The position numbers and the translations under genes were made by a program. A DNA stretch of 64,000 bases from Chrysogorgia sp. JL179-B06 (taxonomy: Eukaryota > Cnidaria > Anthozoa > Scleralcyonacea > Chrysogorgiidae). The DNA lies in assembly GCA_035772405.1 (NCBI GenBank), contig JAYKKM010000439.1, positions 6,080,001-6,144,000 of the forward strand. Reading direction: 5' to 3'. Below, piece by piece: positions 45,901-51,900 of the stretch. The notes beneath the pieces were generated by a model that was not told the DNA's origin, did not search any database, and saw only the letters and a program-made list of their open reading frames with translations. Numbering within the stretch: position 1 is the first letter of the stretch; every line of letters begins with the position of its first letter.

Positions 45901-48900
45901 AGCCAAATTAATTGCTCAACACAGACCGGTGAGTCGGTGACAATGTATTTACCTTTTACTTGTGCCTGTCTTTGATTATCTTGTCCTTCAACACTACAGT
46001 TTCGGCATGAGATCAGCTGATAATGTCTATAGTAATGTTTGTTAAAAACAAACATTACTGCATCCGATGATTTTGTGAGGAAATGGGCAATGGCTGGTTT
46101 TTATGGCATATAACTTTCGCCGTTGGCGAATGGCGGCTTCTTCCGGAAAGCGGTTTGTCGCGCTGGCGTCAATTTAAATTTAAATTACGCCAAATTTAAC
46201 GCACCAAAAAACCGTTTCAATACCGTTTCAATTTTTGCATTCGCAATCATGTGACGGTTGCAATTTGAATATTAATTCAAATGCAGAGGTCTAGGGCCAA
46301 ATTTTCCGATGCCGCGCATGAGGACGGTTGATCATATATATAAACAAATAAATCCGATCCGATATCAGGATCCCCTTGCATCTCGCGTGATAAGGGACTA
46401 AACGCCGGTCGATATTAGCACCCTCGCCCTCAGGCCTTCGGCCGGCGGGGCGAGGGGACAAAGCTTTTGAAATACTATCTACAGTATACATGTATACTAG
46501 GCTATAATTACATTTAGAAATTAGACATGTCCCTTATTATGGTGCTATTTAGAATTTTGAGCTGGGTTCTTATATTCATCATACGATTATGCTTGCCACC
46601 TCGAAAATCGATTGCGAAGAGTGTGAAAGTCATGAAGTAATTTGTGTCACTGTCACAAATGTAACTTGACTTAACTCTTAATAAATATTGATTTCTTATT
46701 AACCATGTCTGACGTCTTTATAGGAAATTGCCTGAGGTTTCCAATAAACCTTCCCAGGATCCTTAAGGATTTCAGGAATTCCTTAAAGGGGAACTCCACT
46801 CCCGAGACAAGTTACGTTTATATAAAAGATCTTACCTTTATTAAGTTGTTCCTGAAGTATCTCTGTCTGAATATTTATATTGAAGGAGAAATAGCTCGCC
46901 AAAGTTCGCGATTTTTGTAAATTTCGACGCCATGTTGTTCTTTTCCGTGCAGACGCGGATTTGTCAGCGCCCTCACTTTGTGACGTCAGTGCGTGCTTCT
47001 TGTGCATAAATTTATCGCGGGAAATGTAAAACACATACTAGCTAACTAGTGCGCTTTCACAAATCGCAAATTCAAAGCAAAATTTAAAACAAAATGCCGC
47101 ATTGTACGGTGCCTTTGTGTACAAATGGTAGTAGAAAGACCAAAGGAACAGATATAAGTTACCACAGGTTGCCAAATGGGCCCCTCAAAAGTATTTGGCT
47201 ACGGAATTTGCGTCGAGAGAATCCTCGTGAACACAGCAACACGTACGTCTGTAGTGAACATTTTACACCGGATTGTTTTGAACCTGCTGTTGAAATAATT
47301 CCTAGGTTTAAGAAGCATAAGCATCTAAAACCGTCTGCAGTACCAACTATATTCGCCTTTCCGACAAAGTTTAATGGGAACAGGACTAGAGCCTCAAGTT
47401 TAAAGCAAATACGAAGTCGAGCTACTAAGGTTTGATGATTTTTTTGTTCGCTTATTTTATGTTTTAAACTCTTTACGAAATTCAACCAGCCTTTGCCTAA
47501 TAATATAATACCAATTTTAATTATATTTACAATATGTACACAATACAGGTAAAATATAGTCTCTTATAATGATCTTTGGTACTTCTATATATACAACCTA
47601 TAATATATTATATGTATATTTATATACATGTATGTACAACATGTCTAAAGTACACCAGGGTTACAAATTTGGTAAAGTCAGAAAACATAAAGGACAGGAG
47701 GTTATTGATTATTGGTGCATATCTGCTACAGTATCCATATTTTGGTTTTGCTTCACATTATCAAGGTTTCAACATTGTTAGAAGAACCAATTTCTGATGA
47801 TTCACCTGGACCATTTTGCAGATGAAAAAATGGACACTTGTAATGATGACCTAACCAATTGTTTAGACCTGAATGCTGAAAACCAAAACGTTACTGAAAA
47901 CAAGGAAGTTCAGACAGATGTTGTGAACATAAAGATGTTCAGAACAGTTGCAACCCAAACTGAAAATGTCCATGTAGAAACAGGATCTCACATACACCCT
48001 GATGATGTTAACCAGTTGTATCACATAGAAGATCACAATTATTCCCTGGGTCCAAATACGGAACTATTGACAGATGATGAGGTTGCACCATGCCCTAGTG
48101 TCTCGACGGATACTAATGAACCCATGCCACTGGTTGGTGAAGACATAAATGAGGTGACTGTGGAATCAGTTGATACACAAGAAGCATGTACCATGGAAGA
48201 TATTGCTGATGCAGAATTGAGTGATAGCTCTTATTGTCCTTCCTCTTCAGACGATGACTTCGAAAAAGATGATGAACAGTTTAATACCACTGCACCTAAG
48301 GAAAAAAAATTTATAGTATTTGAAAGTCAGTTGAACAAATTATTTGTACATTGTCAAAAGTGCTGTGGTCCTATTGACACAACATCTCAAAAGACTCGGG
48401 GCAGTATGATAATTATCACTGCAAATTGTATCAATGGCCATGCTACAACCTGGCAATCACAGCCATCAATTGATGGAAGTGGAGCAGGAAACCTTCTCAT
48501 TCCAGCAGCCATTCTCTTCAGTGGCAACACATATAAACGTATTGCAGACTTTGCAAAATACATAAACCTAGAATTTGTTAGTTCGTCCTATACTACTACA
48601 AGATCCAGAGTACAACATTGTTCCCCGTAGTGCATCAAACTTGGAAAAAAAGTCAAACTTCTGTTGTTAGAAAGATCAAGCAAAGCAGCAGTGTGGATGT
48701 ATGTGGTGATGGTAGGTGTGATAGTCCCGGACATTCGGCAAAATTCGGTACGTACACCCTCATGGATGAATCATCAAGACTGATCATTGAATTCAGCGTT
48801 GTGCAAGTGACAGAGGTAACCTCATCAAATGCCATGGAGTACGAAGGATGCAAAAGAACACTGGATTCAATAATCAAAAAGAAAGTACCAATCCGCTGCC

Positions 48901-51900
48901 TTACAACCGACCGCCACATCACCATCACAGCAAAAATGAGGAGCAACTACCCAAAAATTAAGCACCAATATGATGTGTGGCATTTAAGCAAGTGGGTTTA
49001 CCAAAAAGCTTACCATGAAAGCCAAAAAGAAAGGCTGCGAGGAGTTGATGCCCTGGATCCAAAGTGTTGCTAACCATTTGTGGTGGTCTGCAGCTACATG
49101 TGATGAAGATGTTGATATCCTCAAGGAGAAATGGTTGTCGCTGTTACACCATATCGTAGGGAAACATCGCTGGCGAGCATCCTCTACACACAAACTAATA
49201 AAGAAATGTGGACATCCTTCACTAAGTCGAAAAGACCAGAAGAACACAAAATGGCTCGAAAGTGGTTCTCCTGCTCATGTTGCTTTGGAAGATGTTGTCA
49301 CCAACAAAAAGCTGCTGAAAGATATTGGTAAACTCACTGAGTTTCATCACACTGGTGAGTTAGAGTCTTACCATTCCCTTATGACAAAGTATGTGCCAAA
49401 GCGAGAGCACTTTTGTTATAATGGAATGGTAGCTAGGACTCAGCTAGCAATCTTGGACCACAATGCCAATGTAGACAGAAGCCAGGCCGAGGTCACACAG
49501 GGAATCAACAAAGGAGAGAAGCGGTACAAGGTTGTCTGCACTAAGCAAAGAAAGAACTGGGTGGCCAAGGAAATCAAAACCCCAAAATCAAACAACCATG
49601 TGGAAATTATGATGAATGATGTAATATTGTGTAAGAAAGGGAAGAAATTTCAATACAAGCCAACTCCTCAAGCTAAATGTGTTGCCCCAACCCCCAGACC
49701 TTCAAAGCAGATTGTTATTGAGGAACGCTTAACAAGAATGAACAAAAATAGTACTGAATAGCAAGCTAGCTAGCATGTTTTGAATAGAAAAATATTCATA
49801 AAATACCTCACATTCCAGTGCTACAACAGTAAGATCATTCATCAGGAAAGTGGAAACCAACAAACGCAAAGTCGTCTTCATCGCCTGGTGGTGGAAAGTG
49901 TGCTCGGATGCAACTTACAGCACAAGATGGAAGAACAACACGTATTTCTTTCCCCAGAACTCCCCAACACCATCGCACCAACTGGCGGTATGCTGTATGC
50001 CTATACATTTTATGTTCAGGCCCTTCGTATCCAGTATTTCCGTACTGCTGTTCGTATTGTAGCCAGGCCGCCTGTAATACCCATATATTTAGACAGACTG
50101 TACGAAAGCCTGGGTTATCGGTAATGCACTGATATCTTTCTGCTGGCTGCACGCGTTCAAACACCTCGTCGTTTTTATTGACTGTTTGTTCAACTTCATG
50201 ACAACAAAGACACTCTTCCTCCCTGTCCATCATTTGACAATGTTCGCATATACACCTAACGAAGTAACGATGAAAAACTGTTTTCTTAAATATGCTGCAA
50301 TTCAATAACAAGAATTCACAAATATAAACTATATATTACGTACCAGTCAAGATTATCTAGGCGAACAGTCGGCTGTTCCTCGTCGATCAACATCTCGTCT
50401 GCGGCAGATTCTGATTCACTGCTACTAGTTTCACGTCTAGGCTCGAACTGATAGCCAAGGATAACACCTTCTTGTAAAATGTTCCCGTGAATTTCATCGA
50501 AACTCTGATCTGATGAACTAGAAATAGCGCTCCAAACCGATGAATCGTCACTCGACATGATGAATACAAAACACTTCGCTTGCAAAAACAATAACATCTG
50601 ACGTCACAAAGTGAGGGCGCTGACAAATCCGCGTCTGCACGGAAAAGAACAACATGGCGTCGAAATTTACAAAAATCGCGAACTTTGGCGAGCTATTTCT
50701 CCTTCAATATAAATATTTAGACAGAGATACTTCAGGAACAACCTAATAAAGGTAAGATCTTTTATATAAACGTAACTTGTCTTGGGAGTGGAGTTCCCCT
50801 TTAAGGATCCTTGAGGATTTCAACAATTCCTTAAGGATCCTTCAGGATTGCAGTAAACCTTCCCAGGATCCTTGAGGATTTCAGGAATTCCTTACGGATC
50901 CTTGAGGATTTCAGGAATTCCTTAAGGATCCTTGAGGATTTCACAAATTCCTTAAGGATCCTTGAGGATTTCACGAATTCCTTAAGGATCCTTGAGGATT
51001 TCACGAATTCCTTGAGGATTTCAGGAATTCCTTAAGGATCCTTGATGATTTCAGGAATTCCTTAAGGATCCTTGAGGATTTCAGGAATTCCTTAAGGATC
51101 CTTGAGAATTTTACGAATTCCTTAATGATCCATGAGGATTTCACGAATTCCTTAAGGATCCTTGAGCATTTCACAAATTCCTTAAGGATCCTTCAGGATT
51201 TCAATAAACCTTCCTGAGGATCATTAAGGATTTTAGGAATTCCTTAAGGATCCTTCAGGATTTCAGGATCCTCAAGGATCCTGGTGCAGGATCCTTGAGG
51301 ATCCTTGCAAGGATCCTTGAGGATCCCTGCAAGGAATTTCACCAGGGTATACAGTAGATGTTCACATTATTCACAATTTCACATGCACTAGTTACTGTAT
51401 ATCACCAAAACAACTTGTAAAAGAAATAGAAAACCACAAGTTCATGTTTAAAACACAACTTTATTGATATTACTGTAACTCTGTGATATTCGCTTTTTAC
51501 CATAACCTGTCAGCAAATTTAGCTGGCCAAAACTCAAGGGCGAGTTCAGAGATACAATTTCCATCCACGGCCCATTGTCAGTTGTGGTATATGGTGATGT
51601 TACCACTGAAAAAGGTATACAATCACATTTTCTACGCAAATTATCCTTCAAAATATCATTCATTCAAGTGTCCCATCATGAATGGTGACAATATTTCCTT
51701 GATTCCGTATTATGATTACACTTAGAATTTATGAAAATAATGAGCGTGAGAAAGGCATACAATCACATTTTCTATGCACATTATCCTTCAAAATATCACT
51801 CATTCAAGCATCATTACAAATGGTGACAATATTCCCTTGATTCCGTATTATGATTACACTTAGAAATTATGAAAATAATGAGTGTGGACACTGGATGGCA

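Follow-up and report, generated by a model that had tools for sequence, protein, structure and literature searches.

Kolobok DNA transposons of the Kol0 lineage, in the passages that Kojima and Bao (2022, PMC9587614) devote to them, insert at TTAA, have 5'-RR ... YY-3' ends, and encode a DxxH-type DDE transposase together with KolX, a protein with the fold of the P2X7 ballast. According to the same passages, P2X7 originated when a P2X4-like gene fused with KolX, and the early zygotic zebrafish gene nanor is proposed to be a domesticated KolX. In P2X7, itself a drug target, the cytoplasmic ballast holds a pair of zinc ions and, bound to it, a guanine nucleotide of unexplained function. Should this ballast prove to be an accessory protein of a transposon, a transposition assay would give direct access to its original function. 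Here we describe an element of this kind in a 64,000-nucleotide stretch (the window) of Chrysogorgia sp. JL179-B06 (contig JAYKKM010000439.1, positions 6,080,001 to 6,144,000). We consider it a real Kol0-type Kolobok, Kol0 by its KolX, with KolX probably serving as a dedicated transposase partner and the P2X7 tail probably deriving from the KolX of a sister lineage. We place the probability of this reading at roughly 0.62. The initial annotation of the locus knew of no description of such a pairing. This was mistaken, because the link between KolX and P2X7 is in print in the passages cited; we add how widely the two genes are paired within a single genome, the division of KolX into two lineages, and the set of residues that both of these retain.

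The element spans 4,014 bp (window 46787-50800). TTAA is duplicated on either side, a 4-bp duplication as is characteristic of the Kolobok superfamily, and the termini, AG...CT, fit the 5'-RR ... YY-3' pattern. The outer limits first assigned to it, 46783 and 50804 with the TTAA sites included, were upheld. Its terminal inverted repeats (TIRs) had been given as 202 bp; they are present, but measure 203 bp with three mismatches. When the flanks were joined without the element, one TTAA remained within a 30-bp minisatellite; of 15 rows in a blast against the window, 11 spanned the joint. The two genes are convergent, with stop codons 73 bp apart. The start codons are found 104 and 39 bp inward of the TIRs, one at each end; the two nearly identical repeats therefore probably act as promoters of both genes. 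Compared with the Kol0 elements in the published passages, this one differs just in its family sequence and host copy.

KolX is predicted to be a 211-residue product of two exons on the minus strand. Four in-frame splices were possible in the stretch searched, and the one with an 88-nt intron was chosen because it rebuilds the W-C-x-C-xx-C motif as in relatives. The intact antisense frame with a P2X7 cysteine domain was borne out by a match to Pfam P2RX7_C (PF20478; E 3.9e-16, 60 bits, gathering cut-off 23.5). It was the sole Pfam match over the cut-off in KolX, and no P2X channel domain was found among these matches. All seven zinc cysteines are present in the window KolX, human P2X7 and seven sister-lineage proteins, and they were kept in 49 of 51 alignment rows covering them. 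Opposite KolX lies the transposase with its THAP domain, as first annotated; it is frame-shifted at least twice, which had gone unmentioned. The Pfam MULE match to its catalytic part was below the cut-off. The C/DxxH signature between the second D and the E was present in all 18 aligned relatives, and the letters of the frame-shifted window copy read DVWH. The window copy has probably ceased to be a source of transposase, but its KolX frame is intact.

The pairing of the two genes was tested on part of the host assembly (781 Mb, 522 contigs). The window TIR gave 40 scored matches of 250 candidates. Besides the window, 11 TIR-bounded relatives were fetched, and longer pairs (C518, C123, C34, C80) and unpaired ends were left out. 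KolX was matched in 11 of the 11 and a transposase in ten (all but L039). TTAA stood on both sides in ten of them, the left end of L034 being lost at the fetched coordinates, and the termini again fitted AG...CT. KolX exon 2 was full and stop-free in eight of the 11 (in L038, one of two copies), and the transposase was one unbroken match in two (L030 and L031). Two of the relatives are palindromic derivatives and KolX-only mobile units. L038 (C444:567495-570223) carries two inverted KolX copies between TIRs and just a transposase fragment; L039 (C175:464193-466069) carries two inverted KolX copies, both broken, and no transposase match. Both have TTAA on either side.

A scan of the host with PF20478 scored 150 places of 821 candidates, all 150 above the cut-off, and no match to this family was found in 14 control genomes. 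This copy number contrasts with the one or a few (<10) zinc-cysteine domain (ZCD) genes per species, in ancestral synteny, given in the passages of Rump et al. (2020, PMC7016195). The best 20 of the 150 places, a non-random choice, were fetched as loci and the other 130 were not. Their KolX proteins were 27-37% identical to the best listed relative. An opposite-strand transposase was found at 14 of the 20 loci by tblastn and at 15 by profile. At five loci, TIRs flanked by TTAA formed pairs in which 19-20 of 20 bases agreed. At least one TTAA-adjacent TIR-like end was seen at 12, compared with none in shuffles, the patterns having been drawn from the same loci. Overall, 18 of 20 loci had a transposon sign (transposase or TTAA end). 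The initial annotation had supposed that multicopy ballast genes might be transposon cargo, and had proposed searching the host for TTAA-flanked repeats and a transposase near each copy; the pairing is indeed recurrent in this host. It had also named a one-off host-gene capture by a single element as the outcome that would overturn the idea. We rejected this explanation as wildly improbable, given KolX in every TIR-bounded relative, the pair at 14-15 of 20 divergent loci, and the Kol0 pairing already described in passages of PMC9587614. When KolX and transposase matches were paired by source record, the support was weak, with three exact pairs compared with a shifted null of mean 0.4 and maximum 3; P0001 and P0159, each 95% to the window, formed a suggestive pair. 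Relatives were absent from a viral contig set (three of eight scans) and a genome-contig set, both consisting of viral or prokaryotic records.

The host genome appears, from these protein sequences, to hold two KolX lineages with a deep split between them. One of them, the sister lineage, seems to consist of the 20 best PF20478 loci, of which 14 had an unbroken KolX frame and six were left out; seven of the 14 were dropped as near-copies, and seven entered the tree. One sister gene, L023, is carried by an element that is bounded by TTAA and measures 6,316 bp with its duplications. The sister proteins matched solved P2X7 strongly (L009, E 3.6e-25; L023, 4.3e-22; L018, 7e-22), compared with E 0.013 for the best Protein Data Bank match of the window KolX. 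The early label of a P2X7-type gene is apt for the ballast domain, but the window KolX is not of the P2X7-like kind. In a 22-row unrooted tree, a 100/100 branch set the window lineage, together with coral, crinoid, sea cucumber and fish KolX, apart from the other rows, and P2X7 joined inside the sister lineage. None of the 200 bootstrap trees (0%) recovered the latter as a single group. This suggests that P2X7 is closest to the sister lineage and not to the window lineage, a division that is unstated in the passages of PMC9587614. The host supplies many KolX copies, in at least two lineages and with intact frames, which narrows the lineage to compare with P2X7. Among the literature matches listed, we recognised no other paper on the link between KolX and P2X7; the available text of PMC9319628 mentions Kolobok and P2X7 in unrelated places.

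KolX and transposase lay exclusively on opposite strands in all 24 loci holding both, and their protein distances were correlated (r 0.938; 0 of 2000 permutations as high); the initial annotation had named co-evolving trees as a sign in favour of its idea. The correlation persisted with ten dereplicated loci (r 0.862; 0 of 2000), within the sister lineage (r 0.857 for 14 loci, 0 of 2000; 0.78 for seven dereplicated, 1 of 2000), and within the window lineage (r 0.825 for ten loci, 0 of 2000). Since it holds inside each lineage, the lineage split is not its sole cause. We take the correlation as a mark of co-inheritance, which does not by itself show contact. In KolX exon 2, the ratio of replacement to synonymous change (dN/dS) between the window and seven copies of another subfamily was 0.19-0.21 (dS 0.60-0.72). 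In the sister lineage, it was 0.05-0.07 at dS >1.2, where dS is near saturation, among the 12 of 78 pairs with dS 0.15-1.5 that are shown. Judged from these ratios, KolX is under purifying selection. KolX of L036 and L037, in which the transposase has broken down, had too few changes to judge.

The direction of transfer could also be the reverse, with Kolobok capturing an old host ZCD/ballast gene and P2X7 taking its tail from that host gene. In the passages of Rump et al. (PMC7016195), ZCD genes are linked with two markers in animals ranging from sponge to molluscs, arthropods and echinoderms, and the KolX of locus L018 has no transposon sign. However, KolX distances follow those of the transposase even at deep divergence, and P2X7 attaches inside transposon-borne diversity, albeit by a long branch and weak forks. 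We regard this explanation as a minority possibility. The earlier suggestion that the P2X7 tail descends from a transposon accessory protein agrees with the passages of PMC9587614, and we take that direction of transfer to be the likelier one.

The likeliest role of KolX is that of a partner protein in transposition. The TIRs would drive both genes, the THAP domain would bind the TIRs, the DDE core would cut at TTAA for cut-and-paste transposition, and KolX would assist the transposase in trans as its dedicated partner. In KolX, the folded ballast domain would be the active module and the acidic tail would be disordered. Acidic residues and serine are abundant in the N-terminus (D+E 26%, S 19%, K+R 5% over 24 proteins). 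A PYxFEP-type motif, picked after inspection of the alignment, was found in 22 of 24 long-enough window-lineage proteins (shuffles: mean 0.006, maximum 1), and the other two had near forms. This may be a docking motif in the window lineage. In the predicted structure of a relative, P0002, the PYxFEP segment was disordered, and docking on the ballast domain itself was unsupported by the modelled relative, in which residues 1-57 had predicted local distance difference test scores below 50. Such a tail, disordered in the relative's model, resembles an activation or interaction tail, so KolX might instead serve the element outside transposition chemistry, as a transcription, chromatin or silencing-evasion factor or as a regulator of nuclear import or dosage. 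The proposal in passages of PMC9587614 that nanor is a domesticated KolX is in keeping with such a role. However, L009 and L023, the two sister-lineage proteins inspected, have a different N-terminus without the PYxFEP tail, so the part common to both lineages is the ballast domain. A role of this kind therefore seems somewhat unlikely to us.

Several observations weigh against a dedicated transposase partner and a sister-lineage origin of the P2X7 tail. No functional data on KolX were found in the literature covered. Accessory proteins of the other Kolobok lineages are, in the passages of PMC9587614, either absent or of a very different kind: KolobokP, D, E and H also combine a Kolobok transposase with an accessory gene (on the complementary strand in KolobokP), but the products are His-Me, DEDDh or lambda-type nucleases or a RecQ helicase, and not a ballast. 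Linked genes of one element co-diverge without interacting, so their correlation is no proof of physical partnership. The window and L038 gave a dN/dS of 2.0 in KolX exon 2 (one synonymous and eight replacement changes); with nine changes, this points to copies that are unconstrained after insertion and decaying. Foldseek E-values for the predicted model were just 3e-3 to 9e-2. The placement of P2X7 relies on an unrooted tree with two P2X7 sequences and unsettled bootstrap; its branch is 3.82 long, and the forks placing it in the sister lineage are weak (89/92 and 89/64). Finally, at two of the 20 loci neither a transposase nor a TIR end was found. L011 is nevertheless 95-96% similar over ~900 bp to L014 and L028, which have them, and L018 is 69% similar to others over ~450 bp.

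As described in passages of PMC7016195, rat P2X7 ballast binds a guanosine nucleotide through R546, H547, R574, R578 and K583. KolX has in common with it the seven zinc cysteines, R546, H547, Y550, R578 and the fold; unlike P2X7, it is a stand-alone protein, and R574 and K583 are not kept. In an alignment of 121 rows (the best 120 of 343 matches, plus the window), R546, H547 and R578 were jointly kept in 110, while the R574 position was V in 120 and the K583 position P in 118. All 20 sister loci had R, H, Y and R at 546, 547, 550 and 578; the K583 position is S in the sister lineage. R and H at 546 and 547 were invariant in a 15-row alignment including named corals and sea anemones, which contradicts the report, in those same passages, that H547 is missing outside deuterostomes. 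KolX thus keeps three of the five contacts, not the full site, which is suggestive only. The three are among 26 columns invariant across the window KolX, human P2X7 and seven sister proteins, zinc cysteines included, so their retention is statistically weak and may be structural.

These residues allow KolX to be pictured as a guanine-nucleotide-binding helper that brings GTP or GDP in trans to the Kolobok transpososome. By analogy, passages of PMC7776569 describe a P element transposase that needs GTP, held by an almost all-helical insertion domain. P element/THAP9 and Kolobok transposases both have a THAP domain and an RNase H-type DDE core, and P and Kolobok share the C/DxxH signature in passages of PMC9587614. 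In contrast to Kolobok, P elements make 8-bp duplications and carry the GTP-binding domain within the transposase. The absence of R574 and K583 argues against such a helper, and a literature search on KolX with GTP found no paper; we consider it unlikely. The fuller proposal is less probable still. It would make KolX a nucleotide-sensing partner in trans, from whose sister lineage P2X7 inherited both zinc core and nucleotide pocket, the GDP in the P2X7 tail being a relic of transposition.

Features of the Kolobok element in the window, with coordinates from the first letter of the window
Feature	Position	Strand	Remark
Left target site duplication, TTAA	46783..46786	none	read from window letters and flank joining
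Left TIR, 203 bp, starts AGGGG	46787..46989	+	
Transposase exon 1 with THAP domain	47094..47429	+	PF05485, E 6.9e-19; open reading frame to 47435; donor GT at 47430 inferred by eye
Transposase middle: acidic linker and start of catalytic region	47782..48630	+	acceptor near 47782 inferred by eye
Transposase catalytic part, other frame: first D, second D (TTDRH), DxxH signature	48618..49073	+	
Transposase C-terminal part, further frame, with catalytic E	49015..49761	+	
KolX exon 2: zinc-cysteine ballast domain	49835..50255	-	
KolX intron, 88 nt, GT-AG	50256..50343	-	
KolX exon 1: acidic, serine-rich N-terminus, GYQFEP (PYxFEP-type) motif	50344..50558	-	
Right TIR, 203 bp	50598..50800	-	
Right target site duplication, TTAA	50801..50804	none	read from window letters and flank joining

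A CRE-like TGACGTCA sits at the inner end of each TIR. It occurs at 13 places in the window compared with 0.76 expected, showing that it is common in this stretch and not particular to the element, and it was rejected as an element-specific feature. Elsewhere in the host, the P2X7-like KolX frame of L018 (4731-5189, minus strand) is a remnant or a host gene, and C422:594307-750473 holds six PF20478 places of near-equal score, possibly a repeated array. AGGATCC-rich minisatellites lie at window 50801-51324, 39662-39891 and 41478-41987, and the insertion TTAA of the element is in the first of these arrays. The window also contains a 23-bp satellite of ~95 copies (27872-30058) and, on the minus strand at 4605-5156, a stretch resembling a nucleotidyltransferase of the poly(A) polymerase/terminal uridylyltransferase type (PF22600, E 8e-25).

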